From the IMG/VR virus record IMGVR_UViG_3300050821_017539, positions 1 through 20,591 of that record: DNA of 20,591 bases; one strand, 5' to 3'. This DNA is from a virus. The notes below the pieces were generated by a model. That model did not search any database. It had not been told where the DNA came from and saw only the letters and a list, made by a program, of their open reading frames with translations. A program made the translations under genes and the position numbers. Shown one piece after another: positions 35-20,560 of the stretch; the stretch's first letter is position 1, and every line of letters starts with the position of its first letter.

Positions 35-49
35 GGTGGTGCCGGGGGC
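35..49. repeat. Left attachment-site repeat (attL core)
   Basis: Fifteen bases identical to the 3' end of the tRNA-Phe gene at the other end of the window. The flanks differ at once (G before and A after here; C on both sides at the right copy), so the identity is exactly 15 bp. Bases 1-34 to its left should be chromosomal DNA that followed the tRNA before integration. Confidence 0.8.
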
Positions 50-183
50 ACGGCATGCACGGTACTGCCAGCAATCGATTTTAGGATCGCAGCGTAATTC
101 AGGAACTTACTCTATCGCGCCCTACGCTGGCAAGCGGTTGTGAGGGCAGGAAGAGAACTCTTGGCGTAATCACCGCGATATTC

Positions 184-330
184 TTGTGCCGTCGATTGCC
201 GGCCGATGGCAAACCGTCGCCGGCGAGAGAAACAGCCTTCTACGAATCCATTCAACTCGCGGAAGAACTGATGCGACGGATTGATGCCCGCTGGCCGCGG
301 ACCGCGTGCCTGGAAAAACTTAGACGGTAG
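184..330 (+). CDS. Possible small or degraded ORF at the left end
   Basis: The frame is open from 85 to a TAG at 328-330 but has no ATG until codon 30; a TTG at 184 gives 48 residues. The C-terminal part (ETAFYESIQLAEEL then RRIDARWPRTACLEKLRR) is a plausible amphipathic helix and looks more protein-like than random. No convincing ribosome binding site is seen. It could be a small phage-type protein, or the 3' remnant of one whose start has been lost. After excision it would lie directly downstream of the integrase gene. No function can be assigned. Confidence 0.3.
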   Translation: MCRRLPADGKPSPARETAFYESIQLAEELMRRIDARWPRTACLEKLRR

Positions 331-371
331 CGTGTTCGGAAAGACGATTGGTATTTGGTATATTGGTGTGG

Positions 372-1019
372 ATGACTCCCGACCACAAGTTTGAACTCAT
401 TCGGACTGTCATCTCAATTATCCCGGCAACTGTGCTCTCGGCATGGGCGTTCATCCATCAGCGTCGGCAAACAGCGCCTCGCCTGAAGGTAATTGTTAGC
501 CCAGTATTTTGGAGCGGTGTGGCCGGCGAGCAATGGCTGGCAGATGATTGGCCCGGAATCGTAGTGCTCAACGAAAGTACTTTTCCGCTGAGGGTGAGCA
601 GCGTGGGTTACAAGATTGGCAAAAAATATTACGAATTTGGGAGACCAATCACCGGCAACCTAAAGCCACCGACCACATGGCCGATGGAAATTGCGCCCCG
701 CTCAAGAATCAGTTTGTACTTAAACCCTCACACTATAGAGGGCCGCGCGGTAATGGATGCAGTTTCGCCAGCACTGCAAGGCAGGACGATATGGAAGGCC
801 GGCCGCGCCTACGCTATGACCGAATGTAGTCATACATTCATTTCTCGCCGCTTAAAGAAGAGCTCCGTGGAGATGCTAAGCAAAGCGCGAAAGGCTCAAG
901 AACCACAGGTCCTGAACGCCATACCCCCGAAAGTTAAGGAACAAATCGATAAGGCGAAGCCATTCCGACCAGCGGAACGACCAGCTGTTACAGAAAGTTT
1001 TGGATCAGAACGCGATTAG
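372..1019 (+). CDS. Membrane-anchored hypothetical protein
   Basis: A 215-residue protein from ATG 372; a TTG at 348 would add eight residues. One hydrophobic segment near the N-terminus (about residues 9-28, LIRTVISIIPATVLSAWAF) is followed by a basic RR, suggesting one membrane pass. The middle (residues 40-140) alternates hydrophobic and polar residues with a 'GIVVLNESTFPLRVSSVGYKIG' pattern (positions about 62-83) like a beta-sandwich. The C-terminal 60 residues are basic and proline-rich. I do not recognise a named family. It is alone between the left end and the toxin-antitoxin-like operon; in the excised circle it would follow the integrase. Accessory functions such as exclusion are possible but unproven. 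Confidence 0.6.
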   Translation: MTPDHKFELIRTVISIIPATVLSAWAFIHQRRQTAPRLKVIVSPVFWSGVAGEQWLADDWPGIVVLNESTFPLRVSSVGYKIGKKYYEFGRPITGNLKPPTTWPMEIAPRSRISLYLNPHTIEGRAVMDAVSPALQGRTIWKAGRAYAMTECSHTFISRRLKKSSVEMLSKARKAQEPQVLNAIPPKVKEQIDKAKPFRPAERPAVTESFGSERD

Positions 1020-1745
1020 GCACGACCTCGGTCCCCGTTGGCGGGCAAGACCATAAAGCCACAGAACGTGCGTCAGCGCCGAGCGTCTAGCGAGACACCG
1101 GAGCGCTACATCAACGCCCAGTAATGGCGGCCTCTGGAGAGTGCGCCGACCTGCTCAAGTTGGATGTAGAGACCTTCTACTTCAGCGATGCGCCGAGCTT
1201 CACGCGCCAGTGCGGTGCGGTTCGCTCTCCGGTCCATGGCGGACGGGGTTGGCATTGGCGGGAGTGTAGCAATCAAAGGCTTGGAAGCAGCGTTGCACGG
1301 GCGTTGCACAATGAATGCGGGGGAGAATGGGACGCGGAGGCCGTAGGCCAGGAGCAGGGGCAAGCCGAATCACCTGAAGCGCTTCGTGATACGCGCCAGC
1401 GATCTGCCAAGGCTCTCACAGCAAGAAATTCAGTTCCTCAACACCATTGCCCGCAAACTCGCGCCAGATACCCCCCAGAATCAAACAAAATCAAAGCCAG
1501 CCATCGGAGCGGTGAAGATGGAGTCAGAGGCGCATCCGTGGCGCCAGCCTCCAGATGCGTAGTGGTCAGTTCGAGCCATTGACGGGGGTTGGTTGTTGGT
1601 TTTAGCCAATCTATGCAACACTGTTCCTTCGGACAGTTCCAGCCGTGCGATTAAGTCCTATGTTCTCAGAAAAGCGAGTCGTGTAAGAATTGGTTGCACA
1701 CATGCGGGTCTCCTAGTGTAATATTCCGCCCGCAAGGGACACACT
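1020..1745. other. Long stretch with no convincing gene
   Basis: About 725 bp between the membrane protein and the DUF6941-like gene. Open frames exist on both strands, but the long plus-strand frame (1124-1582) is rich in C, R, S and H in no domain-like order and has no ribosome binding site. Only the 3' end of a minus-strand frame (1106-1255) looks protein-like and is listed separately. The right end may carry the promoter of the 1746 gene: TAATAT at 1719-1724 with a weak TTGCAC at 1694-1699, 19 bp apart. Confidence 0.5.
1106..1255 (-). CDS. Possible 49-aa ORF, may be a remnant
   Basis: From ATG 1255 the frame encodes 49 residues; the last 40 (ANRTALAREARRIAEVEG followed by LYIQLEQVGALSRGRHYWALM) form a plausible helical protein with bacterial-like codon use. 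No ribosome binding site is visible at 1255 or at the internal ATG 1237, and the frame extends upstream to a TTG at 1363 with a far less protein-like sequence. It may be the tail of a decayed gene. No family is recognised. Confidence 0.28.
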   Translation of the reverse strand: MPTPSAMDRRANRTALAREARRIAEVEGLYIQLEQVGALSRGRHYWALM

Positions 1746-2165
1746 TTGCCTGACATTCCGACACTTCTAGCGTTCATCGTCTGCGACACGGTGATACAGG
1801 ATACGGCGACTCAAAAACGAACGCTCGTGGGGGTATTTGACCGGGTTGTGTCTCCAAAGGTTCCGCTCACGATAAACAACCTCGGCCTGTACGCAAAATT
1901 GGTTGAGGGCTCTGGATCGTACGATATGAGGGTTCGACTGGTGAATCTGAAGGACGAGTCTCCGGTCATGGAAATAAAGGCGACCGCGCAGTGGAGTAAG
2001 CCAGATGAACCGCTGGAATTGGGGATGAATTTCGCAGGCATCCCACTTACTGAATTTGGAACGTATGAGTTCCAGTTGTACGCAAACGAGGTCTTTGTCG
2101 GTAGAGCACTTATCAGAGCCGACAAACTCCAACTTCCGCCCTTAGGGCCGGTGCGAGGTAATTAA
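1746..2165 (+). CDS. DUF6941-like protein
   Basis: A 139-residue protein with a TTG start, supported by AAGGGA at 1734-1739 six bases upstream. The opening 'LLAFIVCDTVIQDTATQKRT' (residues 7-26), then 'LVGVFDRV', a hydrophobic mid-part and 'GTYEFQLYANEVFVGRA' near the end, resemble the small beta-rich DUF6941 family, whose members start with an '..CD.v..d..tgk..liGvf' pattern; this is recall, not a search. No signal peptide or membrane segment. It is followed after 3 bp by the HicB-like gene and is probably first in a three-gene operon. Its biochemical role is unknown; the neighbours suggest it may act with the toxin-antitoxin-like pair. Confidence 0.7.
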   Translation: MPDIPTLLAFIVCDTVIQDTATQKRTLVGVFDRVVSPKVPLTINNLGLYAKLVEGSGSYDMRVRLVNLKDESPVMEIKATAQWSKPDEPLELGMNFAGIPLTEFGTYEFQLYANEVFVGRALIRADKLQLPPLGPVRGN

Positions 2166-2168
2166 AAT

Positions 2169-2591
2169 ATGGCCACTATGTCGCAGTACCTTGTAAACCA
2201 AAGTCTTGAGCAGCCCGGGCCAAAAGTCGTGCCTCCGCCCAATGCTCCACAAGCAGTTGTATTTGACAGGGGAATTCAAAGAATCAGGGTTCAAATTCGC
2301 GCGCGGGAGCGCCGCCCGAATCATATTTTGCTCGGGACAATCAATCATTGCGACTTTCGTGTGATTAAGCCGATCCCCGTACATTTGGACGTGCGCGGAG
2401 ACACCGTCATTGCATCGTGGCGGAAGATAGACGAATTTGGGACGGGCACTTCGAGCTCCCTGGCTTGCGATGATCTCGGCCACACGATTGCTGAATTGTA
2501 TTTGTCACTCAAGGCTGATGAACCTCGCCTCGGCCCGGATTTGGCTAGGGTGTGGGGTGTGTTGAAAGAGCATGTCATGCATCGGCCATGA
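2169..2591 (+). CDS. HicB-like antitoxin candidate
   Basis: A 140-residue protein whose C-terminal half resembles the partial RNase H fold of HicB antitoxins: 'VHLDVRGDTVIASWRKIDEF' (about residues 73-92), then 'GTGTSSSLACDDLGHTIAEL' and a closing helix. The order is strand, 'aSw..idefG.G.s...A..dL...iaely..L'. The N-terminal 65 residues have no clear HicB counterpart and no obvious DNA-binding motif is visible. GAGG at 2155-2158 precedes ATG 2169 by ten bases. The stop overlaps the next start as ATGA. Antitoxin is inferred from the weak fold resemblance and the adjacent HicA-like gene; confidence in the role is moderate. Confidence 0.6.
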   Translation: MATMSQYLVNQSLEQPGPKVVPPPNAPQAVVFDRGIQRIRVQIRARERRPNHILLGTINHCDFRVIKPIPVHLDVRGDTVIASWRKIDEFGTGTSSSLACDDLGHTIAELYLSLKADEPRLGPDLARVWGVLKEHVMHRP

Positions 2592-2905
2592 AAGTTCACG
2601 AGTTCGAGAAAATCGTAAATAAGTTAGGACTCAAGGTACGCAACAGCGGCGACCGTCTCGCCTGGTTCGAATACGACGGTCAAACGGTCATTCGCACAAA
2701 ACGCTCACACGGGAATAAAGAACAGCCAGGCAATTTGATTAGGCAACAACTCAAGTTGAACGAGAAACAACTGGCGGGCCTGATAAGTTGCAAAGTCTCT
2801 GTCACGGACTACGTAGATATTTTGAAATCCAAAGGCATAATCGCATCACAGCCCACGCAAGAGCCTGCTCCGCTGCCGAATCCATCAAAACCCAAACGGG
2901 TGTAG
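2588..2905 (+). CDS. HicA-like toxin candidate
   Basis: A 105-residue protein starting at ATG 2588, which overlaps the upstream TGA by 4 bp (ATGA), indicating translational coupling. The start 'MKVHEFEKIVNKLGLKVRNS' and following 'WFEYDGQTVIRTKRSHG' match the helix-strand-strand layout and the RT..SHG element of HicA-like small proteins, and 'IRQQLKLNEKQLAGLISC' then 'VTDYVDILKSKGII' form the C-terminal helices. HicA toxins are mRNA interferases with a dsRNA-binding fold and a key histidine; the His in RSHG is the candidate. The proline-rich tail is not part of the family. Gene order is antitoxin first, the reverse of classical hicAB. Confidence 0.6.
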   Translation: MKVHEFEKIVNKLGLKVRNSGDRLAWFEYDGQTVIRTKRSHGNKEQPGNLIRQQLKLNEKQLAGLISCKVSVTDYVDILKSKGIIASQPTQEPAPLPNPSKPKRV

Positions 2906-3314: not shown

Positions 3315-3947
3315 CTAATCGGCTGCGATTTCACAGTGAGTTGCGGGCACCTCGCGGGAGGTGGTTTTGGCGGGGCTCTGAGCGGCGCGGTACGCGGTAC
3401 CTTCTCCTACCCCAAGCTGCTCAGCGATCATCGCCCATGACAAGCCTAGTTCACGGAGCGTGGCAACCCTCGCGCGATCTACGAATACGTGCGGGCGTCC
3501 GATTTTCTTTCCCTTCGCTCGCGCATTACGCAGGCCAGCTTTAACGCGCTCGACGATAAGGCTGCGCTCCAATTCGGCGACGGCACCGAGAACAGTAAAG
3601 ACCAATTTGCCGGCAGGCGTGCTGGTGTCGAGCTGCTCAGAGAAAGAAACGAACTCAATGCCCTGAGCCTTGAAGGTTTCGAGCGCCCGAAGCAGATGGC
3701 TCACGGAGCGCGCGAAGCGGTCGAATTTCCAAACCACTACAGCATCGAACCGCCGGCGATGCGCGTCAGACATCAGACGGTCGAGCTGCGGTCGCGTTTC
3801 TTTCGTGCCGCTGATTCCGATATCCACGTACTCCCCGGTAACGATCCAACCGCGGCGTTCGGCGTATTCTCGCAGTTCGCGTGTCTGCATTGCCGGATCC
3901 TGCCCATTGTTCAGCGTACTTACCCGTGCGTAGATCGCTACTCGCAT
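3315..3947 (-). CDS. Small serine recombinase (resolvase/invertase family)
   Basis: A 210-residue serine recombinase. The N-terminus 'MRVAIYARVS' places the nucleophile at Ser10; 'VVVWKFDRFARSVSHLLRAL' is the conserved DRFARS region; 'TPAGKLVFTVLGAVAELERS' and 'RVKAGLRNARAKGKKIGRP' form the long E helix and its exit; the C-terminus 'LRELGLSWAMIAEQLGVGEG' is the helix-turn-helix. Length fits the resolvase/invertase class (about 180-210). It should cut and rejoin DNA at paired sites for resolution or inversion. It overlaps the upstream peptidase gene by 10 bp and is last in the minus-strand operon. No invertible segment or res site is evident. It is unlikely to be the element integrase, since a large serine integrase sits at the att site. 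Confidence 0.93.
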   Translation of the reverse strand: MRVAIYARVSTLNNGQDPAMQTRELREYAERRGWIVTGEYVDIGISGTKETRPQLDRLMSDAHRRRFDAVVVWKFDRFARSVSHLLRALETFKAQGIEFVSFSEQLDTSTPAGKLVFTVLGAVAELERSLIVERVKAGLRNARAKGKKIGRPHVFVDRARVATLRELGLSWAMIAEQLGVGEGTAYRAAQSPAKTTSREVPATHCEIAAD

Positions 3948-4498
3948 GGGATTGCCCGTGCGGCCAAAGCGTTGAGCCGGATTGTATTGAACTCCGATAT
4001 GAGGAAAGTCTTCACTTCCTTGCCTTTCAACGTGCGTCGTCGCAGCAACTCGTGTGCCAGGGCGCGGACAAGTTTTTGATTCAGTGGTTGATCTAATAAG
4101 TCTTCGGTCGCAGCGTTAAGATATTTCAAAAACGCCTCAGACGTTCTAGCCGATCCGCAACAGTACATTGCAGCGTTGACCGCTTGTTCGTAGTCATATC
4201 GCCACTGAGATAGCTGGTAACTTCCCAGAGCGGCCTTACGCTGTGCAAGCCCGCCAGCCAGACTTATCTTGATGCTCTTTTCCATGCGGGCCCGCATTCG
4301 GTCGTTGTCCATGTCAAACTCCGGCCCCCGGGGGTGATGGATTTTCCCGTGATGGAAGTGCCCTAGGCTGCCAGCGCTCGACACGATGGTTAGTTTTTTA
4401 ATACGCACCCCGAGACACCAAGCCGCTATAGCATGACCAGATTCATGAAATGCAATTGATCTCAAGGCCCTACGCATCCGTCTTGACCTTCGCTTCAT
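3938..4498 (-). CDS. Stand-alone M41-type zinc metallopeptidase
   Basis: 186 residues from ATG 4498, chosen because AAGGA lies seven bases upstream; an ATG at 4540 is in frame but unsupported. 'SIAFHESGHAIAAWCLG' holds the HExxH zinc motif (His18, Glu19, His22). 'SIKISLAGGLAQRKA' (75-89) matches the glycine-rich helix of the FtsH peptidase domain, and Asp102 in 'YDYEQAVNAA' sits where M41 peptidases have the third zinc ligand. There is no AAA ATPase domain and no membrane segment, so it is only the peptidase part. Such solitary domains occur in phages and plasmids with unknown substrates; processing of a regulator is possible. The 3' end overlaps the resolvase start. Confidence 0.8.
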   Translation of the reverse strand: MKRRSRRMRRALRSIAFHESGHAIAAWCLGVRIKKLTIVSSAGSLGHFHHGKIHHPRGPEFDMDNDRMRARMEKSIKISLAGGLAQRKAALGSYQLSQWRYDYEQAVNAAMYCCGSARTSEAFLKYLNAATEDLLDQPLNQKLVRALAHELLRRRTLKGKEVKTFLISEFNTIRLNALAARAIPCE

Positions 4499-4586
4499 AG
4501 CACATTCCTTTCGATGGCCATCATCAGGCGCCGCATTCACGGCGCGACCCCGGAGGATTATCCCTGGGGTTTCGGCCTTACCTGCG

Positions 4587-4973: not shown

Positions 4974-5080
4974 CTCCGTAATCTCCTTTTCCTGCCCTAG
5001 CCTCATCGGCACCCGCAGGGCAGGTTCACTAATCGCGGGCGGACGAGCAGGGAATTACCCTGCCCGTTTCGGCTCAACGA

Positions 5081-5464
5081 CTAGAGAATTGCGAGGGATA
5101 CAGTCCGCGTTGGCTTCGTTGAATGCAGCACCCGCTCGCAGTAACCGCGGCCCGCATCACGACCGTAAAGGCGATCAGCGAGCCGCTCGGAGACTTCCCG
5201 CCATGCGACGTTGCGACGGAGATTTTCTTTTAGAGAGGCCGATTGTTGGCCAGGCTCGACACCGGCGCCAGCTTCCAAGCGCGCGCGGACAGACTGCTCC
5301 GCTTCGTCGACCTGCTGCTGGAGTTGTTCTGCCCGCCGACGCAATTCCAGAATTAAGCCAATTTCCAGCTGGGTGATTGTTTGCGAAACTGATGCGGATT
5401 TGATCGGTACGACGTTTGTAAAGCCGGGGCTATTGACTCTGTGTAATACACTATGCGTAGCCAT
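5081..5464 (-). CDS. Hypothetical coiled-coil protein
   Basis: 127 residues from ATG 5464, with GGAGG six bases upstream. The N-terminal 30 residues are polar; residues about 30-70 (LEIGLILELRRRAEQLQQQV then DEAEQSVRARLEAG) form a likely coiled coil; the C-terminal part is basic (RERLADRLYGRDAGRGYCER-like). No catalytic motif. It is the second gene of the minus-strand operon, separated from the HTH gene by a hairpin. Could be a small DNA-associated or oligomerising phage protein; the function is unknown. Confidence 0.65.
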   Translation of the reverse strand: MATHSVLHRVNSPGFTNVVPIKSASVSQTITQLEIGLILELRRRAEQLQQQVDEAEQSVRARLEAGAGVEPGQQSASLKENLRRNVAWREVSERLADRLYGRDAGRGYCERVLHSTKPTRTVSLAIL

Positions 5465-5495
5465 CAGTTGCCTCCTTATTAGGCGACTTCGGTTA

Positions 5496-5540
5496 GCGCC
5501 GTGTCAGGATTGCAGCCTGGCTCGGCGCGTTTTATTTTTC
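5496..5540 (+). terminator. Intrinsic terminator oriented rightward
   Basis: Plus strand: GCGCCG (5496-5501), CAGG (5505-5508), loop, CCTG (5516-5519), CGGCGC (5523-5528), then GTTTTATTTTTC. Two stacked stems with a small internal loop and a T-rich tail make a typical intrinsic terminator. It points rightward although the genes on both sides are transcribed leftward, so it would stop transcription arriving from the left end rather than end the local operon. Confidence 0.7.
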
Positions 5541-5752
5541 TAACGCTTTGATTTTGGTTTCGGGCCTGTCTTCTGTGTTCCTTTGAATCTGCGAGCCTTT
5601 TCCACATCTGCCTTTGTCCAGCGCCACATGATGCGCCCGTCCATCGGAACCTCAATGGATGGTTTTATAAACCCACCGTTGAGCCACCGCTGCAGAGTGA
5701 GTCTGTGAACGCCGATCCTCTTGGCGACTTCATTTGTCGAAAAGGTTTGCAT
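5540..5752 (-). CDS. MerR/excisionase-like helix-turn-helix protein
   Basis: 70 residues from ATG 5752: 'MQTFSTNEVAKRIGVHRLTL' and 'QRWLNGGFIKPSIEVPMDGR' are a classic helix-turn-helix plus wing of the MerR/excisionase (HTH_17) type, followed by 'MWRWTKADVEKARRFKG' and a basic GPKPKSKR tail. Longer in-frame starts upstream run into the control region and look non-coding. There is no clear Shine-Dalgarno sequence, so the mRNA may be leaderless. It is first in the minus-strand operon and adjoins the divergent promoter region. Likely roles are repressor/activator of that region or recombination directionality factor; the sequence does not decide between them. Confidence 0.85.
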   Translation of the reverse strand: MQTFSTNEVAKRIGVHRLTLQRWLNGGFIKPSIEVPMDGRIMWRWTKADVEKARRFKGTQKTGPKPKSKR

Positions 5753-5791
5753 TACGCATATACATGTACTATAATACCGAAATGCTGTCAA
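5747..5791. promoter_or_regulatory. Divergent promoter and operator region
   Basis: Between the HTH gene (5752, leftward) and the zinc-finger gene (5854, rightward). Plus strand: a perfect TATAAT at 5770-5775 with TTGCAT at 5747-5752, 17 bp apart. Minus strand: a perfect TTGACA at 5791-5786 with a weak TACATG 17 bp on, at 5768-5763. The palindrome TACATGTA (5761-5768) lies under both. The two promoters would face and interfere with each other, as in phage switches. Promoter assignments are by eye only. Confidence 0.55.
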
Positions 5792-5853
5792 GGAAATTGT
5801 GAGACATTGCTTCGTGCGCCGGGAAAGCGCGCGCTTCAAGAACCGGAGGATGT

Positions 5854-6615
5854 ATGCGAATTCAGATTGGACCTTACCAACGGCCAGCGCCCCCAAAGAG
5901 ACCACTCGGATTGGGCGCGTCGAAGACTACCCAGAAGCCACCCGTACCAATGCATGAGATTGAAGCAGAGGCAAAAATTGTGCTGCAAGGCATGATTGCA
6001 AGGGTCAGGAAACCAGGACGACCATTGGTTAATGTGGAACCGATGACAGCGGCCGAGCGACAAGTCAGGCGGCGGTGCATTCAGGAAGCATTAAGGGTTG
6101 GCGATGCACACGGAAAGTCTCGCGAGGAAGCCGTATCTGGTGGGTGGGGTAAATATGAACTCGACCGGTTTAGCGCAAACGTAGATGAGGGTTTGTCTCC
6201 TACGACCGGTGGCGGTAAAAGAGTGAGTCCCCGCCCTGCGACCGATGACGGCAAATCCCACAAAGTCCATGTAGGCGGACTGCAGATCGGTGATGAGAAC
6301 GCCAATCGGCGCCTGTTTGCGGAGAACGAGTTGAGCAAGATGGTCGGAGAGTATTTCGTGTCGCCGACAGTTAACCCTTCGGCGCATTGGGTTTCTAGAC
6401 AAGTTTCAAACGTTGTCGTCCAACAACCGTCCCCATCATTAACCCTCACCTGTAAGGTCTGCGATGATGTCATGCAGTCCACGAGCGATGCCACAGATCA
6501 CCTGCGAGTTGATCACCGAAAATTAATTTGTGCATGGTTTGCACGTCTGAATCCTCCGAGGGAGTTTCGTGACATGGGTTCTTTCGTGACTGTCGTTATA
6601 CCGAGGAAACGTTAA
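5854..6615 (+). CDS. C2H2-type zinc-finger-containing hypothetical protein
   Basis: 253 residues from ATG 5854 with GGAGG four bases upstream. N-terminal 60 residues are proline/arginine-rich with a 'KPGRPLVNVEPMTAAERQVR' segment (about 53-72), a pattern often seen before a basic helix in DNA-binding proteins. Near the C-terminus 'LTCKVCDDVMQSTSDATDHL' continues to RVDHRK, giving C-x2-C then H-x4-H (about residues 201-222), a single C2H2-like finger. The middle is not recognisable. As first gene of the rightward transcript from the divergent region it is probably an early or regulatory protein. The transcript should end at the terminator at 6734-6768. Confidence 0.75.
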   Translation: MRIQIGPYQRPAPPKRPLGLGASKTTQKPPVPMHEIEAEAKIVLQGMIARVRKPGRPLVNVEPMTAAERQVRRRCIQEALRVGDAHGKSREEAVSGGWGKYELDRFSANVDEGLSPTTGGGKRVSPRPATDDGKSHKVHVGGLQIGDENANRRLFAENELSKMVGEYFVSPTVNPSAHWVSRQVSNVVVQQPSPSLTLTCKVCDDVMQSTSDATDHLRVDHRKLICAWFARLNPPREFRDMGSFVTVVIPRKR

Positions 6616-6686: not shown

Positions 6687-6733
6687 TATAAGTGAGGGAA
6701 GCGCAAGCTTCTCCGGTTCGTAAAAACATTCCC
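6687..6733 (+). promoter_or_regulatory. Possible promoter and leader-RNA start
   Basis: TATAAG at 6687-6692 is a good -10 element but no good -35 is visible. A transcript starting just after it would first fold the hairpin GAAGC-GCAA-GCTTC (GNRA-type tetraloop, about 6699-6712) and then the strong terminator at 6734-6768, giving a short RNA of about 70 nt. Confidence 0.35.
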
Positions 6734-6768
6734 AAAGCCGTCTGGTCGTCAGGCCGGGCGGCTTTTTT
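6734..6768 (+). terminator. Strong intrinsic terminator before the Cro-like gene
   Basis: Twelve-pair stem AAAGCCGTCTGG (6734-6745) with CCGGGCGGCTTT (6754-6765), including two G-U pairs, an 8-nt loop, and a continuing T run to 6768. It lies between the zinc-finger gene and the Cro-like gene, so rightward early transcription should stop here unless antiterminated or restarted downstream. Confidence 0.88.
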
Positions 6769-6805
6769 ATTGCTGTCGAGACGAAGAAATTTTCAAGAGG
6801 GTATT

Positions 6806-7075
6806 TTGAGGGCGAATCTAGAAGCAGCAATCAAGGTCCGGTTTGGTAGTCAGATCGCATTCGCGCGTGAAGTTCGCTTGCACCCAATAAAAATCAATCG
6901 TATTTGCCGAGGCTGGATCGAACCAACACCCCTTGAGCGCGCGCGCATTACGGAAGCGCTTCAGGCGGATGCCGATTGGTTATTCGCGGTGTTGCTAATT
7001 CCGGGACCGAAAAATCCTTTAGCTGCTGGACCCAAGTCCGTAGTGGCGAGCAGTTCCGCAGACCTCACAATTTAA
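6806..7075 (+). CDS. Cro-like helix-turn-helix regulator
   Basis: 89 residues from a TTG at 6806 with AAGAGGG just upstream. An in-frame GTG at 6692 would place the terminator hairpin inside the coding region, so it is rejected. The core 'FGSQIAFAREVRLHPIKINR' and 'ICRGWIEPTPLERARITEAL' is an XRE/Cro-type helix-turn-helix (about residues 12-50) followed by 'ADADWLFAV', where the family typically ends its fold. The tail is low-complexity. It precedes the long late-type operon by 73 bp and is a candidate controller of the divergent region or of late genes. Confidence 0.8.
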   Translation: MRANLEAAIKVRFGSQIAFAREVRLHPIKINRICRGWIEPTPLERARITEALQADADWLFAVLLIPGPKNPLAAGPKSVVASSSADLTI

Positions 7076-7148: not shown

Positions 7149-8375
7149 ATGTGCCAAACGCAAAGCACAACACCCCAACCCCTAACTCAGCCAGGTAGCC
7201 CACTGCCCGGCGGTGGCACAGCCGGCGCGGGCCCGGTAAACGGCGACCCACTTAGCTCCGCGATTCAGGCAGAGTCCGCGGCCAACCCTGCAACTGCATC
7301 GGTAAACGCGCCAACAAAGTTCGGGAAGTTACTGAGTTTCGTCGCCCCCCTCGCAGAAGGCGCGGCAATTGGTGGGTTGACCGGTAAGGGCCATCCAGGC
7401 GGCGGGTTTGGCGCGGCGACGGATTTTTACAATCAGCAGCGGCAACTGCAAATGCAGCGACAACTGCAGATGCAGCAACTAGCGAATCAACAGACTGCCA
7501 ACCAGCAGAAGAACGCGGAAATCATGCTGGACGCCGCGCGAACGCAGCACGTTATCAACCAGCCCGAGTTTGTGAACTCCCGATTAGCAGAAGTGCAGGA
7601 TCCTGACGATCCAGACAGTCTGTTGGTGCAGGCGCGTAATCCTCAGAACGGAAACTGGGAAACGGTTGGTCGCAAACCTGCTAAAGCCGACAAAACCAAT
7701 ATCATTCCTACAACGCAAGGTTACATGGTGGCCAACGGGAGCAACGGAACTGCCGTGCCACTCACCGCACCAGGCACATCCACGCCGACTACAACGGCAA
7801 TTCCAGTCGGAACGAATCCTGTTGGCTCCGGACAGTTCGGCGGAGCAACTGCCAGTCCTAGCATGATTCGGAGCATACCGACGACAACTCCCGGCGTTCC
7901 CCTCATGCCTCCAGGGACAATTAACGCGAAGAACCCAAAGCCCCTCAAAGTTACGAACCGTGGAGCGAGCGGATCCGAGTCAGACAGTCTGATTGACGAG
8001 AATCCGCAAAGTCCAACATTCGGCCAACCACTTAAGCAAAACATTGCCAGTCGCGCACCGGCACCGAGAGAAGCGGATATAACTCGTGCGGATCGGGAGC
8101 AAACGGGTTCTGATGCGGAACAGGTTGCTGCGGCAGCGATGGATAAATTTGGTGGCGACCCAGACAAGGCGATCAACTACGTTAACAGTCTGAAAACTGG
8201 AGACCCTGCAGCGGACAAGCATTTGACCTCAATCCTGCCTTTAGTTCGTAAGAGCATCCGTGACCGGGTAAAGCCGGGGAAGACCGGAAGACAAAGATTG
8301 ACCCCTGACCAGGTTCAGCAGCTATCGAAGCAGAACACGGAAAACAGTTCCGTTCTTGACGACGACAACGATTAA
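7149..8375 (+). CDS. Q-rich virion-type protein, companion of the giant protein
   Basis: 408 residues from ATG 7149 with GAGGAG four bases upstream. Order: Gly/Pro-rich N-terminus; 'FGKLLSFVAPLAEGAAIGGL' hydrophobic stretch (about 57-76); a Q-rich coil with repeated QLQMQ (about 97-125); low-complexity Pro/Thr/Gly linker (about 190-265); a charged helical C-terminal third ending DDDND. No enzyme motif. Composition and position directly before a polyvalent-type protein resemble small internal or ejection proteins of short-tailed phages; this is inference. The gap to the next gene is 5 bp, so translation is probably coupled. Confidence 0.65.
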   Translation: MCQTQSTTPQPLTQPGSPLPGGGTAGAGPVNGDPLSSAIQAESAANPATASVNAPTKFGKLLSFVAPLAEGAAIGGLTGKGHPGGGFGAATDFYNQQRQLQMQRQLQMQQLANQQTANQQKNAEIMLDAARTQHVINQPEFVNSRLAEVQDPDDPDSLLVQARNPQNGNWETVGRKPAKADKTNIIPTTQGYMVANGSNGTAVPLTAPGTSTPTTTAIPVGTNPVGSGQFGGATASPSMIRSIPTTTPGVPLMPPGTINAKNPKPLKVTNRGASGSESDSLIDENPQSPTFGQPLKQNIASRAPAPREADITRADREQTGSDAEQVAAAAMDKFGGDPDKAINYVNSLKTGDPAADKHLTSILPLVRKSIRDRVKPGKTGRQRLTPDQVQQLSKQNTENSSVLDDDND

Positions 8376-8380
8376 ATCCC

Positions 8381-13700: not shown

Positions 13701-14012
13701 ATGAGAGCAAAGTTGTCAGAGAAACTGAAAGCGATTGAGAGGCTCCTATACCAGAGGGCGGTCCTTGCCGGTCTCGTCTGGTTGGCGGTGCTTATGGCCT
13801 TCGTCTCAGTAATCTGGGGTAGTCGTTGGGCCATGGCGTCATGCGCACTCTCGCTTGCGGTGTTGACGCATGTCGTAATGGTCATGCTTGGGACCATCGG
13901 AATGGTCGCGGAGAGCATTGCAGTGATTCGGGACAATTACAAAAAAGAAGTGCAAAGCATCGACAAGAAGGAGCCTGAGAGCGCCAAGCCAATGTCCGCC
14001 AAGGTCCACTAA
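13701..14012 (+). CDS. Small protein with two membrane helices
   Basis: 103 residues from ATG 13701, AGAGG six bases upstream. Two hydrophobic segments, about 21-40 (AVLAGLVWLAVLMAFVSVIW) and 46-69 (ASCALSLAVLTHVVMVML), separated by a short loop; basic N-terminus and charged C-terminal tail (KKEVQSIDKKEPESAK). This hairpin topology fits a class II holin but also many other small membrane proteins. No endolysin gene is recognisable nearby, so a lysis role is only a possibility. It sits 22 bp after the giant protein gene and may work with it at the membrane. Confidence 0.65.
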   Translation: MRAKLSEKLKAIERLLYQRAVLAGLVWLAVLMAFVSVIWGSRWAMASCALSLAVLTHVVMVMLGTIGMVAESIAVIRDNYKKEVQSIDKKEPESAKPMSAKVH

Positions 14013-14060: not shown

Positions 14061-14092
14061 GCAGTTAAGTCCAAAAGTCGGAGGAGACGAAG

Positions 14093-15031: not shown

Positions 15032-15056
15032 AACACCAAGGGTCGGATCAAGCCAG

Positions 15057-15068: not shown

Positions 15069-15128
15069 AGGAACAGCGGAGTGGTGTGCTTCCCCGATTC
15101 GACGACCCAAAATAGCGAGAGGTGTTGC

Positions 15129-15611
15129 GTGAAATCTAAAAAGTCTACCAAGTCCTCCAAAACGACATTGACGCTCAAACAAGCCAGGCTCCTCAAAGAG
15201 ATTCCAATGTCCACCTCCGTTGCTGAGGCAGGGGAAAAAGCCGGCTACGCGTATCGACAGGACGCCCACAGAGCGCTTAAGAGCATCAGCGAGAGGGCAC
15301 CAGAAGTCCTTGAAAGACTAGGTCTAACGATCGAATACGTCGCTGACAAATGCTTACGGCCGCTCCTCGAAGCCAAGGAAACCAAATTCTTTGCTAATCA
15401 GGGAATAGTTCTGGATACGCGAGAGGTCGAAGCCTTGGATATCCGGCTCCGCGCCGTTGATGTCTGGGGGCGATTGATGGGCGCATTCACGGCACAGAAG
15501 CTTCAGGTAAGTGGAAACCTAAATTTGGATTTAAATCATGCCAGCGACGAAGAACTCGATAGTGCCATCACCGCTTTGCTTGGAGCGGATGAATCGCCAG
15601 CAAAAACTTGA
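15129..15611 (+). CDS. terS: Terminase small subunit
   Basis: 160 residues from GTG 15129 with GAGAGG six bases upstream; the frame opens earlier but that part looks non-coding. After a basic tail (KSKKSTKSSKTTLT) come 'LKQARLLKEIPMSTSVAEAG' and 'EKAGYAYRQDAHRALKSISE', a helix-turn-helix like those of TerS DNA-recognition domains, then a helical oligomerisation region and an acidic C-terminus (NLNLDLNHASDEELDSAITAL), the usual TerL-contact end. TerS selects the DNA to be packaged. The gene overlaps the ATPase gene by 23 bp in tight operon order. Confidence 0.8.
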   Translation: MKSKKSTKSSKTTLTLKQARLLKEIPMSTSVAEAGEKAGYAYRQDAHRALKSISERAPEVLERLGLTIEYVADKCLRPLLEAKETKFFANQGIVLDTREVEALDIRLRAVDVWGRLMGAFTAQKLQVSGNLNLDLNHASDEELDSAITALLGADESPAKT

Positions 15612-16251
15612 ACTGCACGCTGCCCTGGAAGAAAAAGAGCGCCGCCGGTGCGCGGCTGACGCGGAGTACTGGCTTTTCAAGTATGCAAAGACGCGGGATG
15701 AGCACGACCCTACGGTGACTGCCAAGCCGTTCCCGGATAAAGAGTACATACGGGAACTCATCCGGTTCTGGCTCCGCGGGAAAATGAATCTCATAGAAAA
15801 ATCGCGTCAGATGATGTGCAGCTGGGTGCTCTGCAGTCTTTACCTGTGGGACGCACAGTTCCACACCAACAGACTGAACTTTCTATCCTCCAAAAAGGAG
15901 GAGGATTCAGACCGATTGATCCAAAGGTGTTTTACCATTTGGGGCAATCAACCGGTCTTCTTGCGCGCGGTGTTTCCAGCGGAATATTCATTCTGCCATT
16001 TGAAGTTTTATCGTCCTGGCGGCGAGATTGTTCTGCCCTACAGCGAGTTGTGGGGAATTGCCCAGGGCCCAGACATCATCCGCCAACACGTTGGTTCGGC
16101 ACTTTTCATCGACGAAGGGGCATTTCAAACCGACTTGGAATCCTTGATCGGCGCCGCCAAACCAATGCTCTCCGGCGGTGGCCGCCTGGATATTGTTTCC
16201 TCTGCGTCTCCCGGATTTTTTGAGGAGTTAGCGGAGGACCGCGTTGCATGA
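15589..16251 (+). CDS. terL: Terminase large subunit, ATPase part (split gene)
   Basis: 220 residues from ATG 15589 (GGAG just upstream; ATG 15538 is also in frame but lacks a site). Packaging-motor ATPase: 'LIEKSRQMMCSWVLCSLYLW' holds the variant Walker A (about 70-79, KSRQM..SW form); 'PDIIRQHVGSALFIDEGAFQ' ends in Walker B ALFIDE (171-176); 'RLDIVSSASPGFF' is the coupling motif (204-209). Full TerL continues into a nuclease domain; here a TGA stops the protein seven residues after the coupling region and the nuclease follows as a separate overlapping gene. The two products probably assemble into a working terminase. Confidence 0.88.
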   Translation: MNRQQKLELHAALEEKERRRCAADAEYWLFKYAKTRDEHDPTVTAKPFPDKEYIRELIRFWLRGKMNLIEKSRQMMCSWVLCSLYLWDAQFHTNRLNFLSSKKEEDSDRLIQRCFTIWGNQPVFLRAVFPAEYSFCHLKFYRPGGEIVLPYSELWGIAQGPDIIRQHVGSALFIDEGAFQTDLESLIGAAKPMLSGGGRLDIVSSASPGFFEELAEDRVA

Positions 16252-17126
16252 AGGGGATATCACGGCGCCGCACGAAACTTGGCTTCAACATTCTGCGCCT
16301 TCATTACACTGCGGATCCGGACAAAGACCCAGCGACTCAGGTGGGAAAGGTTTGGTACAACGAAGCGCGGAAGGGCATGTCGGCGGCCCGTTGGGCGCAA
16401 GAGTTCGAGATCGATTACGGAGCCCTTAGCGGCCAACTAGTTTTTCCTGAGTGGGACGATAGCACGCACGTTGTTCCCTATCGTAAGTTGGAACCTCACG
16501 AATGGACGATGTGGATGGCGTGCGATCCGCATCCGCGGACTCCGCATGCTTTCGTCTGGCTTGCAGTGAACCGAGAAGGTGAGATGGTAGTCCCCTTCGC
16601 TTGGTGGCCGAAACAACCTCAAGCCGGCGACCCCAGACTCACGGTTAAAGACTACGCTGAAAAGCTAAAACTGATTCACCACCACTTGGGATTTGAGCCG
16701 CGTTACATGCTGATGGACGTGGCTGGCCGAAGCATGAACGCCAGTGAAGAGCACTCTTACTTTGATGCCTACCGCGAGGTCGGACTGTATTTCCGGCCCG
16801 CAAAGAAGAATCGCGATATGAGCGGTTTCGAGCTGATCAACGAAGCCCTGAAACTCAAACCATACAGTGTCGGCGACAAAGAAAAAATGAGGCCCCTTCT
16901 CACGGTGATGGACGATAACGACGAGTTGGTTTACCAAATCAGGCACTTACGTTTTGCGGAATGGCGCGGGAATGTAGTCGACAAAAACGATCCGCAAATG
17001 CCAGTCGAAAAACGAAGGCATCTTGTGGACGGTCTTTGTTACATCCTGCTGGATGAACCCAGATTTGTTGAGACCGGTAAACAGCAAACTGAGTATGAGC
17101 CTATCTACCCAGCTCTCGGGCACTAA
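16248..17126 (+). CDS. terL: Terminase large subunit, nuclease part (split gene)
   Basis: 292 residues from ATG 16248, overlapping the ATPase stop as ATGA, with GGAGG (16233-16237) ten bases upstream. The RNase H-like nuclease carries the three expected acidic positions: Asp93 in 'WMACDPHPRTPHAFVWL', Asp157 in 'PRYMLMDVAGRSMN', Asp261 in 'KRRHLVDGLCYILL'. The first 60 residues (LGFNILRLHYTADPDKDP, then WYNEARKGMSAARWAQEFEI) are the linker region normally fused behind the ATPase. All catalytic residues are intact, which argues for a functional split rather than decay. A sequencing indel in the 28-bp double-open stretch cannot be excluded. Confidence 0.88.
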   Translation: MKGISRRRTKLGFNILRLHYTADPDKDPATQVGKVWYNEARKGMSAARWAQEFEIDYGALSGQLVFPEWDDSTHVVPYRKLEPHEWTMWMACDPHPRTPHAFVWLAVNREGEMVVPFAWWPKQPQAGDPRLTVKDYAEKLKLIHHHLGFEPRYMLMDVAGRSMNASEEHSYFDAYREVGLYFRPAKKNRDMSGFELINEALKLKPYSVGDKEKMRPLLTVMDDNDELVYQIRHLRFAEWRGNVVDKNDPQMPVEKRRHLVDGLCYILLDEPRFVETGKQQTEYEPIYPALGH

Positions 17127-17157: not shown

Positions 17158-17180
17158 GGAAACATTGGAGATCGATTCTG

Positions 17181-18173
17181 ATGTCAGACAATAAAGTATC
17201 GGCGCCCATGGCGTCAAGAGAAAAGCGCGGTCCTGGATTCGTGCAAATCCGCAGGGGTCTCAAAGAGCATCTACACCAGGCAAAAATGTCGAGCAACGGA
17301 GCGAAATTTTACCTGTGGTGTCATCTCTCCGCCGGTTGGTCCGGTCCAAATCGCGGATGCGTCGAGACTGATTACCACACAATTGCAAGTGCCCTTGGTT
17401 GGGGAACGCGAATGATTCAGCGTACGATCGCTGAGTTGAACGGCACCTATATCGACGTTAAATTCGCGGCAAATCAGCACGAGCTTACAACGATCAAAAT
17501 ATTGAAGTTCGATGCCAAGCAAACCAATTCTGCTGTGGACACCGGTGTCCACAGCGACGATGTTGGTGTGGACAGTGGTGTGGACAGAGCAGTGGACAAG
17601 GGTGTCCATAGCAGTGTCCACAGCAACCAGCTTAACTCACAGAGTCAAAATGGTTTGCAGGCTCCTAAGAAGTCAATAGAAGTCATAGAAGAAAGAAGAG
17701 TAGAACATGACGCCGTACGGCGTCGGTTTGACGCCGAACAGCGATTGTCTTCTAAAAGAGTTTTTTCTCCTTCGGAGAAGAGGCAAAAGCTCGCCGAACG
17801 CCTCACCGCCAAAATTCGCGTGTCCGGCGAATCGTACCTCAGATTGATCGAATGCTGCAGGATGAAGGGTTTGGAATCACCTTTTGGAAGGGATGAACGG
17901 GAGGCGTTCGCGATGTTGCAGTACGACGTCGATCTGACAAATCCGCTGCTCACGTGCGGTTTTGTAGATGCCGTCGTTGATGTATGCGAGGCACAACGAG
18001 AAGCCGATGTGTTGCCGGGAAACCTTTGTTCAAAAGTGATTGATCTTTGCGAGAGTCGGCGATCACAAAACTGTTACTACCCTCCCGATTTTGTAGACCA
18101 TCGGAATCGTTTACGCGCAAAGGAGCGTGCGTTTGAGCTGCCGTCGGGATCTTACGAGGAGGCGCGGGTATGA
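17181..18173 (+). CDS. Replication-initiator-like protein with internal origin
   Basis: 330 residues from ATG 17181. Residues 18-110 ('GFVQIRRGLKEHLHQAKMSS', 'KFYLWCHLSAGWSGPNRGCV', 'TIASALGWGTRMIQRTIAEL') are a winged helix-turn-helix as found in phage and plasmid replication initiators. Residues 119-149 are a low-complexity linker of VDxG/VHSx units encoded by the iteron array. The basic and helical C-terminal half (190-330) would contact partner proteins. The layout, N-terminal DNA-binding domain, iterons coding the linker, then an A-rich tract, mirrors the lambda O gene and ori. The stop overlaps the next start (ATGA). No helicase or primase gene is seen, so host enzymes would be recruited. 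Confidence 0.75.
   Translation: MSDNKVSAPMASREKRGPGFVQIRRGLKEHLHQAKMSSNGAKFYLWCHLSAGWSGPNRGCVETDYHTIASALGWGTRMIQRTIAELNGTYIDVKFAANQHELTTIKILKFDAKQTNSAVDTGVHSDDVGVDSGVDRAVDKGVHSSVHSNQLNSQSQNGLQAPKKSIEVIEERRVEHDAVRRRFDAEQRLSSKRVFSPSEKRQKLAERLTAKIRVSGESYLRLIECCRMKGLESPFGRDEREAFAMLQYDVDLTNPLLTCGFVDAVVDVCEAQREADVLPGNLCSKVIDLCESRRSQNCYYPPDFVDHRNRLRAKERAFELPSGSYEEARV
17531..17620. repeat. Iteron array inside the replication gene (putative ori)
   Basis: Seven copies of GTGGACA or its complement TGTCCAC (one with a final T): starts 17534(+), 17545(-), 17567(+), 17579(+), 17591(+), 17602(-), 17614(-). Steps are 11, 22, 12, 12, 11 and 12 bp, close to one helical turn with one position skipped. The first two form a perfect 24-bp palindrome (17531-17554, half-site GCTGTGGACACC). 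An A/G-rich tract follows at about 17640-17708, a possible unwinding region. The copies loosely resemble DnaA boxes but miss two consensus positions. Confidence 0.75.
17709..17736. repeat. Second palindromic site next to the iterons
   Basis: A perfect 16-bp palindrome GACGCCGTACGGCGTC (17709-17724) plus a further direct GACGCCG (17730-17736). It lies just beyond the A-rich tract after the iterons and is unrelated to them in sequence, so a second protein may bind here. Confidence 0.55.
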
Positions 18174-18520
18174 ATGGTGCAGAGGAGCTTTTCCGGAAAT
18201 ATCGAGAGATTGGTCCAGCCGTTTGGCTACTCACTTTGTACTGGGCTGCCTGTGATCAGGAAGTGAATCCCTGGTTTCTTGTGATGAACGGGGAGCCACT
18301 TAGCGATCAGGAGGTAGCGGTGTATCTAGGCGTTTCGGTGCACACGGCAACGCGTTGGAGAAAGAAATTGCAACGAACTGGATTTGTTCTCTCTGAATCG
18401 CGCGCCGGCGGTTTTCAGATCCGTGTCAAACGGCCGCAGTTTGTGTACGCCGCCATGCTGGGTTACCGAACTCCGGTTCTTGGCAGTTGGCCAAAGATTG
18501 CGACAGAGTTGGTTCAGTAG
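18170..18520 (+). CDS. Helix-turn-helix protein downstream of the replication gene
   Basis: 116 residues from ATG 18170, overlapping the replication-gene stop (ATGA), with GGAGG-type sequence upstream. 'EPLSDQEVAVYLGVSVHTAT' and 'RWRKKLQRTGFVLSESRAGG' (about 42-80) form a winged helix-turn-helix. The N-terminal 'AVWLLTLYWAACDQEVNPW' segment is hydrophobic and probably a core helix. The pair order, initiator then second DNA-binding protein, suggests a replication accessory or loader, but no ATPase motif is present. It could also be a transcription regulator. Confidence 0.75.
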   Translation: MNGAEELFRKYREIGPAVWLLTLYWAACDQEVNPWFLVMNGEPLSDQEVAVYLGVSVHTATRWRKKLQRTGFVLSESRAGGFQIRVKRPQFVYAAMLGYRTPVLGSWPKIATELVQ

Positions 18521-18570
18521 CGGGCGTTCCAAAAACCCTCGTGGCCGGGCAGCCGCAAGCCATTGAATTT

Positions 18571-18669
18571 ATGGTGGCAGCGAGGACGGAAACGTCGTTC
18601 CAGAAACATGTGTTTTTGAAGGGGCAGAATAAGTATCAAAAAAAGGAGGAGAAACGGACGTATGGGTGA
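18571..18669 (+). CDS. Possible small ORF coupled to the next gene
   Basis: A frame ending in TGA at 18667-18669 overlaps the GTG start of the next gene as GTGA, the typical sign of coupled translation. From ATG 18571 it encodes 32 residues, highly basic and polar (VAARTETSFQKHVFLKGQNK then YQKKEEKRTYG). GTG 18541 and TTG 18487 would lengthen it; none has a clear ribosome site. AGGAGGAG, which serves the next gene, lies inside it. Confidence 0.33.
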   Translation: MVAARTETSFQKHVFLKGQNKYQKKEEKRTYG

Positions 18670-18875
18670 CAGCGACTGAGCGAAAGAAGAAACTCGAGCG
18701 GCTAGGCGCCAAGATTGATCCCGATCTCAGAGATTTTATTGATCGCGTGATCGTACCCGTTCTCGTGCGTGAGTACATTGCGGAGCGCCAAACTGGAATT
18801 CATATTGCTGAACCCCTCACAGGTGTGCCACAGTCCGAGACGTCCAAGGGGCTTTCGGCCGAGAGGATTCAATGA
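18666..18875 (+). CDS. Small integrase-associated protein, candidate directionality factor
   Basis: 69 residues from GTG 18666; AGGAGGAG is at 18643-18650, somewhat far, and no other in-frame start lies between. 'ERKKKLERLGAKIDPDLRDF' and 'IDRVIVPVLVREYIAERQTG' form a helical core; the short 'DP.L..FID.VIVP.LV..Y' pattern is one I recall next to large serine recombinases, though I cannot confirm this here. The tail is polar. The stop overlaps the integrase start (ATGA), so the two proteins are made together. A role in controlling integrase direction is plausible but not shown. Confidence 0.65.
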   Translation: MTATERKKKLERLGAKIDPDLRDFIDRVIVPVLVREYIAERQTGIHIAEPLTGVPQSETSKGLSAERIQ

Positions 18876-20560
18876 ATCAACTCCGCTGCGCTATCTACGC
18901 ACGATTCTCCAGCGAGAAGCAAAGTCCGTTAAGCATCGACGATCAGGTCAGGAAATGTCGGGAGTACGCGTCGCTTCATGGGTGGGCTGTTCTTGACTGC
19001 CACATTTATGCCGACGAGGCGATTTCCGGGGCAACAGATGACCGGTTAGGGCTGCGCAAAATGCTCGCGGCCGCGGTCAGTTCAGCGCATCCATTTGACG
19101 CTGTCCTTATCGACGACACCTCACGCCTAAGCCGAACACTTAGGGACTCCTTTGCTATTCACGACGACCTCCGTTTTGCGAACGTTCGACTTGTGTTCGT
19201 CAGCCAAGGTATAGACACCGACTCTGAGCAGGCAGAAGTTTTGCTTGCTACACACGGGATTGTCGACAGTCTTTACCTCAAAGAGCTAGGTAAAAAAGTC
19301 CACCGCGGCGTCCAGGGGAAAGCGCTAAACGGGCTGCACACCGGCGGGAGATGTTTTGGATACCGGAACGTGCCCATCGAAGACCCGACTCGGGTTGACC
19401 AGCACGGGCGGCCACTGATAACCGGTGTTCGACTCGAAGTGCGGGAAGATCAATCGGCGATCGTTACCAGGATTTTCAGTTTGTATGCGGGCGGCCTCAG
19501 TCTTCAAAAGATCGCAAAACAGCTAAATGCAGAGCGCGTCATATCCCCACAACCCCAGAAAGGAAGGATCTCGCAATCTTGGTGCCCATCGTCGATCCGC
19601 ACAATTCTTAGAAACGAGCGCTATCGGGGTAACGTCGTTTGGGGAAAAACAGTCAAAGTGCGCTCACGATCCGGAAAGCGCATCTACAAACGAACGTCCC
19701 CAGACAAGTGGGTCGTCCGGGAGATTACCGAGCAGCGGATTGTGTCGGAAGAACTATGGAACGCAGTTCAGTCTCGAATTCGGACGGTCAAGGAGCTCTA
19801 TGGCGAAATTGGGAAAAAGGGTGGCATGCAGGGCCGCTCGATTAGTTCGCCGTATCTATTCTCCGGGTTACTGAAGTGCAGCGAGTGCGGCGCAAATATA
19901 AGTATCGTCTCTGGACGGTGGCGTGGGAGAACAGACGTTGTGTACGGGTGCCCGCAGAACACCTTTCGAGGTGCTGTTGTCTGTCGCAACGGTACGCGCG
20001 TCTTCCGGAAGGTGCTTGAGGAGAGATTGCTGGGGGGCTTGCAGAATCAGGTAATGCGGCCGGAAGTCATCGATTACATCCTCGAGAAATTTGAGCACGA
20101 ATTTACGACCGCCATGGAGAACCTCGGCGGCGAGCTGGAGCAAATGCGTCGACGCAAGGAGGAGTTAGAACGGGAGATACGAAACCTGGCCAACTTCGTG
20201 GCGCAAGGCGACTGCTCACCTGGAATCAGGGGCGCCCTTGTGGATCGCGAGCGCCAGATTGGCGAAATAACAGGGAAGCTGCTCGAAGCACGACCAGACG
20301 CCCTACAGGCGAAGCTACGTAACATACGAATGCTCGTCGAGACTCGAATGAAGGAAATTCGCGGCATCTTAAATTCTGACACCGCCCAAGTGCGTGCCGA
20401 ACTCGCTAAGCATGTCGATAAAATCACGATGACTCCGAGCGGCGATCACTACGTGGCCTCAGGAAGTTGGCAATTGCTAGGGCGTGGCAGTATCGGTGGT
20501 GCCGGGGGCCAGAATCGAACTGGCTACGCCCGCCTTTTCAGGGCGGCGCTCTACCACTGA
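18872..20560 (+). CDS. int: Large serine integrase ending inside the tRNA gene
   Basis: 562 residues from ATG 18872. Catalytic domain 'MNQLRCAIYARFSSEKQSPL' (nucleophile Ser13), 'AVLIDDTSRLSRTLRDSFAI' and the following helix; recombinase domain about 160-300 with 'SLYAGGLSLQKIAKQLNAER' and 'WCPSSIRTILRNERYRGNVV'; zinc-ribbon cysteines at about 335, 338, 361 and 369 (CSEC...C...C); coiled coil about 410-470 of the LSR class. It catalyses integration between attP and the tRNA-Phe site. The last 16 codons lie beyond the 15-bp att core, inside the antisense of the tRNA, with stop at 20558-20560. In the excised circle the frame instead continues through bases 50-97 to a different 15-residue end. 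Confidence 0.95.
   Translation: MNQLRCAIYARFSSEKQSPLSIDDQVRKCREYASLHGWAVLDCHIYADEAISGATDDRLGLRKMLAAAVSSAHPFDAVLIDDTSRLSRTLRDSFAIHDDLRFANVRLVFVSQGIDTDSEQAEVLLATHGIVDSLYLKELGKKVHRGVQGKALNGLHTGGRCFGYRNVPIEDPTRVDQHGRPLITGVRLEVREDQSAIVTRIFSLYAGGLSLQKIAKQLNAERVISPQPQKGRISQSWCPSSIRTILRNERYRGNVVWGKTVKVRSRSGKRIYKRTSPDKWVVREITEQRIVSEELWNAVQSRIRTVKELYGEIGKKGGMQGRSISSPYLFSGLLKCSECGANISIVSGRWRGRTDVVYGCPQNTFRGAVVCRNGTRVFRKVLEERLLGGLQNQVMRPEVIDYILEKFEHEFTTAMENLGGELEQMRRRKEELEREIRNLANFVAQGDCSPGIRGALVDRERQIGEITGKLLEARPDALQAKLRNIRMLVETRMKEIRGILNSDTAQVRAELAKHVDKITMTPSGDHYVASGSWQLLGRGSIGGAGGQNRTGYARLFRAALYH
20495..20509. repeat. Right attachment-site repeat (attR core)
   Basis: The second copy of the 15-bp repeat. 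It covers, on the minus strand, the end of the T stem, the 3' side of the acceptor stem, the discriminator A, the encoded CCA and two further bases. The tRNA therefore keeps a full 3' end after integration. In the integrase frame the repeat reads as five whole codons (GGAGG). Confidence 0.82.

Follow-up and report, generated by a model that had tools for sequence, protein, structure and literature searches.

We analyzed a window of 20,591 bases, the complete IMG/VR virus record IMGVR_UViG_3300050821_017539, which holds an integrated element with terminase, replication and integration genes and no recognizable portal, capsid or tail genes (Table 1). The element lies between two copies of an exact 15-nt repeat, one of them within the 3′ end of a tRNA-Phe(GAA) gene. 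A 15-mer repeat in the first ~60 nt is expected by chance at <1e-6, and the boundaries given at this repeat in a preliminary description of the DNA hold. Because the window is the whole record, just ~34 nt of host DNA are visible on the left and ~20 nt on the right. Identical copies of the 75-nt tRNA-Phe were found in four genome contigs, all from metagenome-assembled genomes (MAGs) of Acidobacteria, and 3 of these 4 contigs encode, at the tRNA, serine integrases 50-52% identical to that of the window. Given the exact tRNA and the related integrases in Acidobacteria MAGs, we conclude that the element sits 3′ of the tRNA-Phe gene of a soil Acidobacterium. It opens with a cargo region (348-2905), followed by a leftward block (3315-5905) of resolvase, M41-like protein, two proteins without assignment and HTH regulator, and then by a rightward series of genes running from g10 through the serine integrase.

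A two-gene terminase and no shell genes

The packaging genes comprise a small terminase gene (TerS) and separate genes for the ATPase half (TerLN) and the nuclease half (TerLC) of the large terminase (TerL). TerLN, in which the Walker B and coupling motifs of large terminases are present, matched a PHROG terminase family (2e-8) and, used as a profile, the ATPase domain of T4 gp17 (3e-11). TerLC had no match in Pfam or PHROG; it aligned at 28% identity with a podophage TerL, over the nuclease half of the latter. An AlphaFold model of TerLC (pLDDT 88) matched phage D6E TerL and the nuclease domain of P22 TerL. Residues D93, D157, H258 and D261 of TerLC were invariant across 32 aligned sequences, and the acidic triad of an RNase-H-like nuclease is complete. 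TerS families were matched in a pooled profile scan of the element group, that is, the window and the eleven relatives described below.

TerLN and TerLC are adjacent or overlapping in 10 of the 12 group members, window included. At the seven junctions read, the end of TerLN overlaps or directly adjoins the start of TerLC, the stop codon being TGA, TAG or TAA, and in three further members the two genes are adjacent. Since the junctions are conserved with differing stop codons, the split is natural, and a frameshift or an assembly error was rejected as its source. The split TerL noted in the preliminary description is not a peculiarity of the element, nor can it serve as a satellite hallmark: many related phages, full podophages among them, also have a two-gene TerL. 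Nearly all recovered loci with both halves were split, TerL being fused in L028, L074 and L137, although this commonness is biased by queries that were themselves derived from split genes. Two-gene loci (L043, L047, L051, L060, L062, L069, L111, L126 and many more) were seen in environmental phage contigs, including those of full-size podophages, and the ATPase and nuclease genes in these contigs are often separated by hundreds to thousands of bases. The halves are reversed in the L025/L069 group, where the nuclease gene precedes both TerS and the gene for the ATPase. Literature searches, the coverage of which was incomplete, returned no description of a split TerL.

No Pfam or PHROG family for a portal, capsid, scaffold or tail protein was found among the open reading frames of the group, including in subset scans that listed every family. 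Hidden Markov models (HMMs) for the portal, major capsid protein (MCP) and tail protein, derived from related podophages, matched 33, 21 and 6 phage loci, respectively, and had no match in eleven satellite members, nor in G030. The only proteins of at least 400 aa in the window are the integrase, a giant protein and its companion. Where the order could be read, the replication gene follows the terminase in the members, and it is the portal gene that lies downstream in related podophages. Thus, the portal and MCP genes that follow TerL in a complete temperate podophage are missing, and the element combines integration and replication genes with an incomplete virion gene set, as phage satellites in general do.

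Table 1. Features of the element and its attachment site in the 20,591-base window
Feature	Position	Strand	Basis
attL: 15-nt copy of tRNA-Phe 3′ end, GGTGGTGCCGGGGGC	35..49	+	exact repeat of 20495-20509
Cargo region: 223-aa protein without assignment, DUF6941 protein (1746-2165), 140-aa protein without assignment, weakly HicA-like 117-aa protein (2552-2905)	348..2905	+	Pfam
Small serine resolvase/invertase	3315..3947	-	Pfam Resolvase 2e-48; 56-77% relatives in G019, L018, L019, G493, L021, G495, L024
M41-like peptidase-domain protein, accessory	3938..4540	-	Pfam 2.8e-7
Conserved protein g8, without assigned function	5081..5464	-	51-56% relatives in G495, G493
Helix-turn-helix (HTH) regulator	5540..5905	-	Pfam HTH_17/MerR; relatives in G019, L018, L021, G495, G030
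Conserved protein g10, without assigned function	5854..6615	+	48% relative in G030
g11, probable repressor-like protein	6692..7075	+	31-36% relatives in G493, G495, L021, G030
Companion of giant protein, 408 aa, Gly/Gln-rich, predicted ejection partner	7149..8375	+	27-31% partners in G019, G495, G028
Giant polyvalent-type protein, 1765 aa	8381..13678	+	PHROG 6651; tblastn to podophages; domain common to G019, G493
Small membrane protein g14	13701..14012	+	43% relative in G019 beside its giant gene
TerS, small terminase	15081..15611	+	56-74% relatives upstream of TerLN in G019, L023, L024, L035, G030
TerLN, large-terminase ATPase half	15538..16251	+	KSRQMM Walker-A-like motif, Walker B LFIDE, SSA motif
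TerLC, large-terminase nuclease half	16248..17126	+	alignment to podophage TerL, AlphaFold model, invariant residues
Replication initiator/helicase-loader-like gene	17181..18173	+	48-51% relatives in G019, L035; DnaD/O-like PHROG matches in relatives
Candidate origin: cluster of five TGTCCACA/TGTGGACA repeats inside replication gene	17534..17627	+	shuffles give <=3 copies
HTH protein g22	18170..18520	+	Pfam; relatives in G019 (48%), L035 (56%)
Small protein g23 just 5′ of int	18666..18875	+	45-51% relatives before int in L019, L021, L035, G030
Large serine integrase (int); 3′ end reads through attR, antisense to tRNA	18872..20560	+	Pfam/PHROGs; 80% relative at tRNA-Phe in L035
attR within tRNA-Phe 3′ end, GGTGGTGCCGGGGGC	20495..20509	+	exact repeat of 35-49
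tRNA-Phe(GAA), host attachment site	20497..20571	-	tRNA call; exact sequence in four Acidobacteria MAGs

Relatives with the same design

Eleven relatives were recognized by TerLN, two in Acidobacteria genomes (G019, G030) and nine metagenomic (L018, L019, L021, L023, L024, L035, L109, G493, G495 among the eleven). They were recovered via the tRNA pattern, searches by host order and two-member alignments; a scan with two TerLNs yielded seven close viral contigs and later scans two more, and searching the genome and viral contigs with one protein alone, the giant or TerLC, found nothing. Most relatives have TerS and TerLC and, for the most part, recognizable replication and integrase genes. Member sizes reach 31 kb and the integrases differ, with a serine integrase at tRNA-Phe in the window, L021, L035, G495 and G030 and tyrosine recombinase genes in G019, L023 and G493.

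G019 has nearly the gene order of the window, with a tyrosine integrase, and encodes a resolvase, a companion, a membrane protein, a 1856-aa giant, TerS (56% identity to the window), TerLN (62%), the replication protein (49%) and an HTH protein (48%). L035 corresponds to the right half of the window (TerS 74%, TerLN 77%, TerLC 62%, replication 48%, HTH 56% and integrase 80%, followed by tRNA-Phe), and L021 runs from the resolvase to tRNA-Phe within 9 kb, with no giant gene. On the 165-kb chromosomal contig of G030, the order is ftsK, tRNA-Phe, integrase, g23, replication gene, TerLC (58%), TerLN (78%), TerS (70%), g11, g10 and HTH. In G493 the giant measures 1400 aa and the integrase is of the tyrosine type. 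G495 (L029+L030) is a 30.8-kb record that ends at tRNA-Phe beside ftsK, with its modules partly reordered; its resolvase/HTH block stands between TerLC and int, unlike in the window, and module order is reshuffled among members. For L021, L035, G495 and G030, the search for a second att copy was negative.

At least three unrelated TerS types precede the conserved TerLN, namely the type of the window (15081-15611), an HTH type in L018, L019, G493 and G495, and the type of L021; in L018 and L021 the TerS genes lie at L018:6091-6531 and L021:3880-4377. The presence of several TerS types before the same TerLN points to exchange of the specificity subunit as a module.

In a tree of 96 TerLN sequences, which took in 11 of the 12 members, window included, the eleven members then known formed one clade with support of 100/99 and a stem of 0.76 substitutions per site. 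Only 1 label change was observed on this tree, compared with 10.7 in shuffles. Estimates of dN, the nonsynonymous divergence, were 0.10-0.37, with dS, the synonymous divergence, at about 2 or more, or saturated, indicating purifying selection on the terminase. The members thus form a conserved capsid-less lineage distinct from their phage relatives, of which the nearest with a portal, L038, has a TerLC of 41-43% identity and its portal gene after TerLC. The preliminary description had read the element as one with packaging genes (TerS, split TerL), a replication module and an integrase and with no portal, capsid or tail signature, and had proposed a search for the same gene order without capsid genes. 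The Pfam, PHROG and podophage-HMM scans agree with that reading, and the layout recurs in eleven relatives, with no shell genes. Two outcomes that it had named as fatal did not materialize: no hidden portal or capsid emerged from these scans, and the element is no one-off deletion product of a full prophage, the same layout being present in independent elements of a single TerLN clade, all without shell genes.

Giant protein, companion and remaining genes

The C-terminal 270 residues of the giant protein match PHROG 6651, an internal virion protein family (1e-27), and residues ~970-1740 match podophage internal virion proteins by tblastn; the protein is multidomain and of the polyvalent/internal virion protein kind. 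A further domain, around residues 390-600, is conserved and common to the window, G019 and G493, and among the members the internal-virion-protein C-terminus was detected by HMM in the window and G495 only. A predicted structure of the C-terminus was too poor for use (pLDDT 50), and no PDB sequence relative was found. A giant of 3467 aa lies at L029:4204-14607 in G495 and joins DarB-like antirestriction, methyltransferase and helicase regions to an internal-virion-protein C-terminus.

The preliminary description had made a giant ejected protein a defining part of the element. A giant gene is present in the window, G019, G493 and G495, but L018, L019, L021 and G030 have none and the copy in L024 has decayed, so the giant protein is accessory. 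The remnant in L024 (L024:3279-3569) stands beside an intact TerLN. Conversely, two other capsid-less Acidobacteria elements encode a gp16-like giant and a companion and have no terminase gene: G028 (L014/L015), with 28.1 kb between 13-nt tRNA-Phe repeats, and G089 (L016/L017), with 13.4 kb flanked by tRNA-Thr repeats that are 40 nt or longer. In the G089 giant, one search gave a TAA inside the match, and the frame as read is open. Because these two elements have the giant and companion without the terminase, and some members have a terminase without a giant, the terminase and ejection cassettes are separable modules on shell-less elements.

The companion is a low-complexity protein, not portal-like by sequence, and had no match to the four-helix protein that precedes the gp16-like gene in podophage ctQWt234. 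Its partners in G019, G495 and G028 are encoded directly upstream of, or near, the giant genes, and this position, together with conservation, suggests that it may act as an ejection partner.

The assignment of the replication gene owes more to its relatives, with strong PHROG matches (6e-19), than to the window protein, the match of which is weak (0.04); a scan of viral contigs with the window protein gave no relatives. The arrangement of the TGTCCACA/TGTGGACA repeats inside the window gene is lambda-O-like. The sequence of these iterons is not common to the relatives, and the replication gene of L023 contains a different 5-copy repeat of its own, GATCGGACA. The integrase frame crosses attR into the tRNA, so that the final ~17-22 residues of the protein are not the same in the integrated element as in its circular form. 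The cargo genes had no counterparts in the relatives compared.

A putative satellite family that brings its own motor

We consider it likely that these elements are a new family of phage satellites that bring TerS and TerL and borrow the shell of a helper podophage. A more detailed version, in which a complete two-gene motor docks on a foreign portal, several members add an injected DarB/gp16-like protein of their own and the helper supplies the shell only, is possible, and we hold it tentatively. The serine integrase would place the element at tRNA-Phe, where HTH regulators would keep it quiet. Upon helper infection or induction, the element would excise and replicate from its own initiator, and its own TerS would select satellite DNA for packaging. 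TerLN and TerLC would then dock, as ATPase and nuclease, on the portal of the helper and fill the helper head; members without TerLC could use the nuclease of the helper. The helper is probably a podophage, as both TerL and the giant have podophage relatives. In members with a giant, the giant and companion would be added to the particle and enter the next cell with the DNA. Products of the P1 darA operon are packaged in heads (PMC5512222), and by analogy with these and with T7-like internal proteins, the giant is probably loaded into the particle and injected.

Several observations weigh against this proposal. Neither a helper phage, nor particle-derived reads, nor a cos or pac site is in evidence. 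Metagenomic contigs make up most of the membership, several of these being fragments, and the second boundary is unmapped in both chromosomal members. A full terminase is not universal, since G019 and L024 have no TerLC. Finally, the Walker A motif of TerLN is not the canonical GK[ST] but KSRQxxxSW. The latter is also present in the related phage contigs L025/L026 and in the fused 482-aa TerL of L028, which is followed by a portal-like gene (a reading made by eye), and, being common to related phages, is therefore no sign of TerLN decay.

The podophage character of the terminase, giant and replication gene, the decayed giant gene of L024 and the missing TerLC of G019 would also suit a defective podoprophage that has shed its head and tail genes and whose remainder persists unpackaged. 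We regard this as unlikely: eleven relatives share the same losses, ten of them forming one old clade with the window, their genes are intact and under purifying selection, their integrases differ, and what follows the terminase is a replication gene rather than a portal remnant. It is also rather improbable that TerS and TerLN serve mainly to subvert or block the helper motor, with the nuclease half optional. The TerLN-only members G019 and L024 speak for such an interference factor, as does a conserved TerLN that is preceded by TerS genes of three or more unrelated types, but TerLC is kept in 10 of 12 members, with invariant catalytic residues in those aligned. Least probable, and in our view very much so, is an anti-phage or host-benefit island with exapted phage genes that is rarely transferred horizontally; the variable cargo (DUF6941, a peptidase-like protein, a weakly HicA-like gene) fits such an island, but this cargo is not conserved, and the conserved part consists of integrase, resolvase, replication and terminase genes.

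Compared with known systems, the proposed satellites combine familiar parts in a different way. The cf-PICI (capsid-forming phage-inducible chromosomal island) and Mulch/Flayer satellites encode both terminase subunits, small and large, themselves (PMC10690885). These integrative or satellite elements resemble the window in having both TerS and TerL, but they also have genes for portal, major capsid and head, with tails as the part that they borrow, whereas no portal, MCP, protease or connector genes were found in the window group. Classical PICIs and SaPIs share with it an integrase, regulators, replication genes, a TerS-type specificity factor and small size; however, they redirect the helper TerL with TerS or Rpp and bring no TerL, in contrast to the TerLN and TerLC of the window, in which no PICI hallmark genes were seen. 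PICMI of Vibrionaceae are likewise small integrative satellites without capsid-remodelling genes, and no packaging genes have been identified in them (PMC10803314); the window group, with TerS and a two-gene TerL, is not minimal in this sense. Hallmarks of P4-like elements and PLE (psu, sid and others) had no match in the PHROG and Pfam scans, and no search aimed at those genes was made. Split-TerL podophages with a P22-like capsid (L051, L062 and, in a soil metagenome, L038) have the same TerLN/TerLC family in two separate genes, but portal, scaffold and MCP genes follow their TerLC, which is just 27-43% identical to that of the window. As for the giant, its internal-virion-protein C-terminus and the DarB-like giant of G495 recall polyvalent proteins, P1 DarB and T7-like internal virion proteins, known cases of which sit in full phages or conjugative elements, unlike the capsid-less window group. 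Literature searches gave no description of a satellite family with a terminase and no capsid, nor of any satellite in soil Acidobacteria; with incomplete coverage of the literature, the novelty is provisional.

In the literature covered, described satellites redirect the helper motor, use it unchanged, or bring motor and shell together. Bringing the motor and leaving the shell to the helper would, if true, fill the missing combination and imply that TerL and portal pair loosely enough for exploitation across genomes. The TerLN clade offers a marker for finding satellites in soil Acidobacteria. Furthermore, with the DarB-like and gp16-like giants of capsid-less elements, the polyvalent-protein theme of phages and conjugative elements would come to include satellites. 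In the more detailed version of the proposal, the parasite would control both the DNA that is packaged and the protein that is injected.

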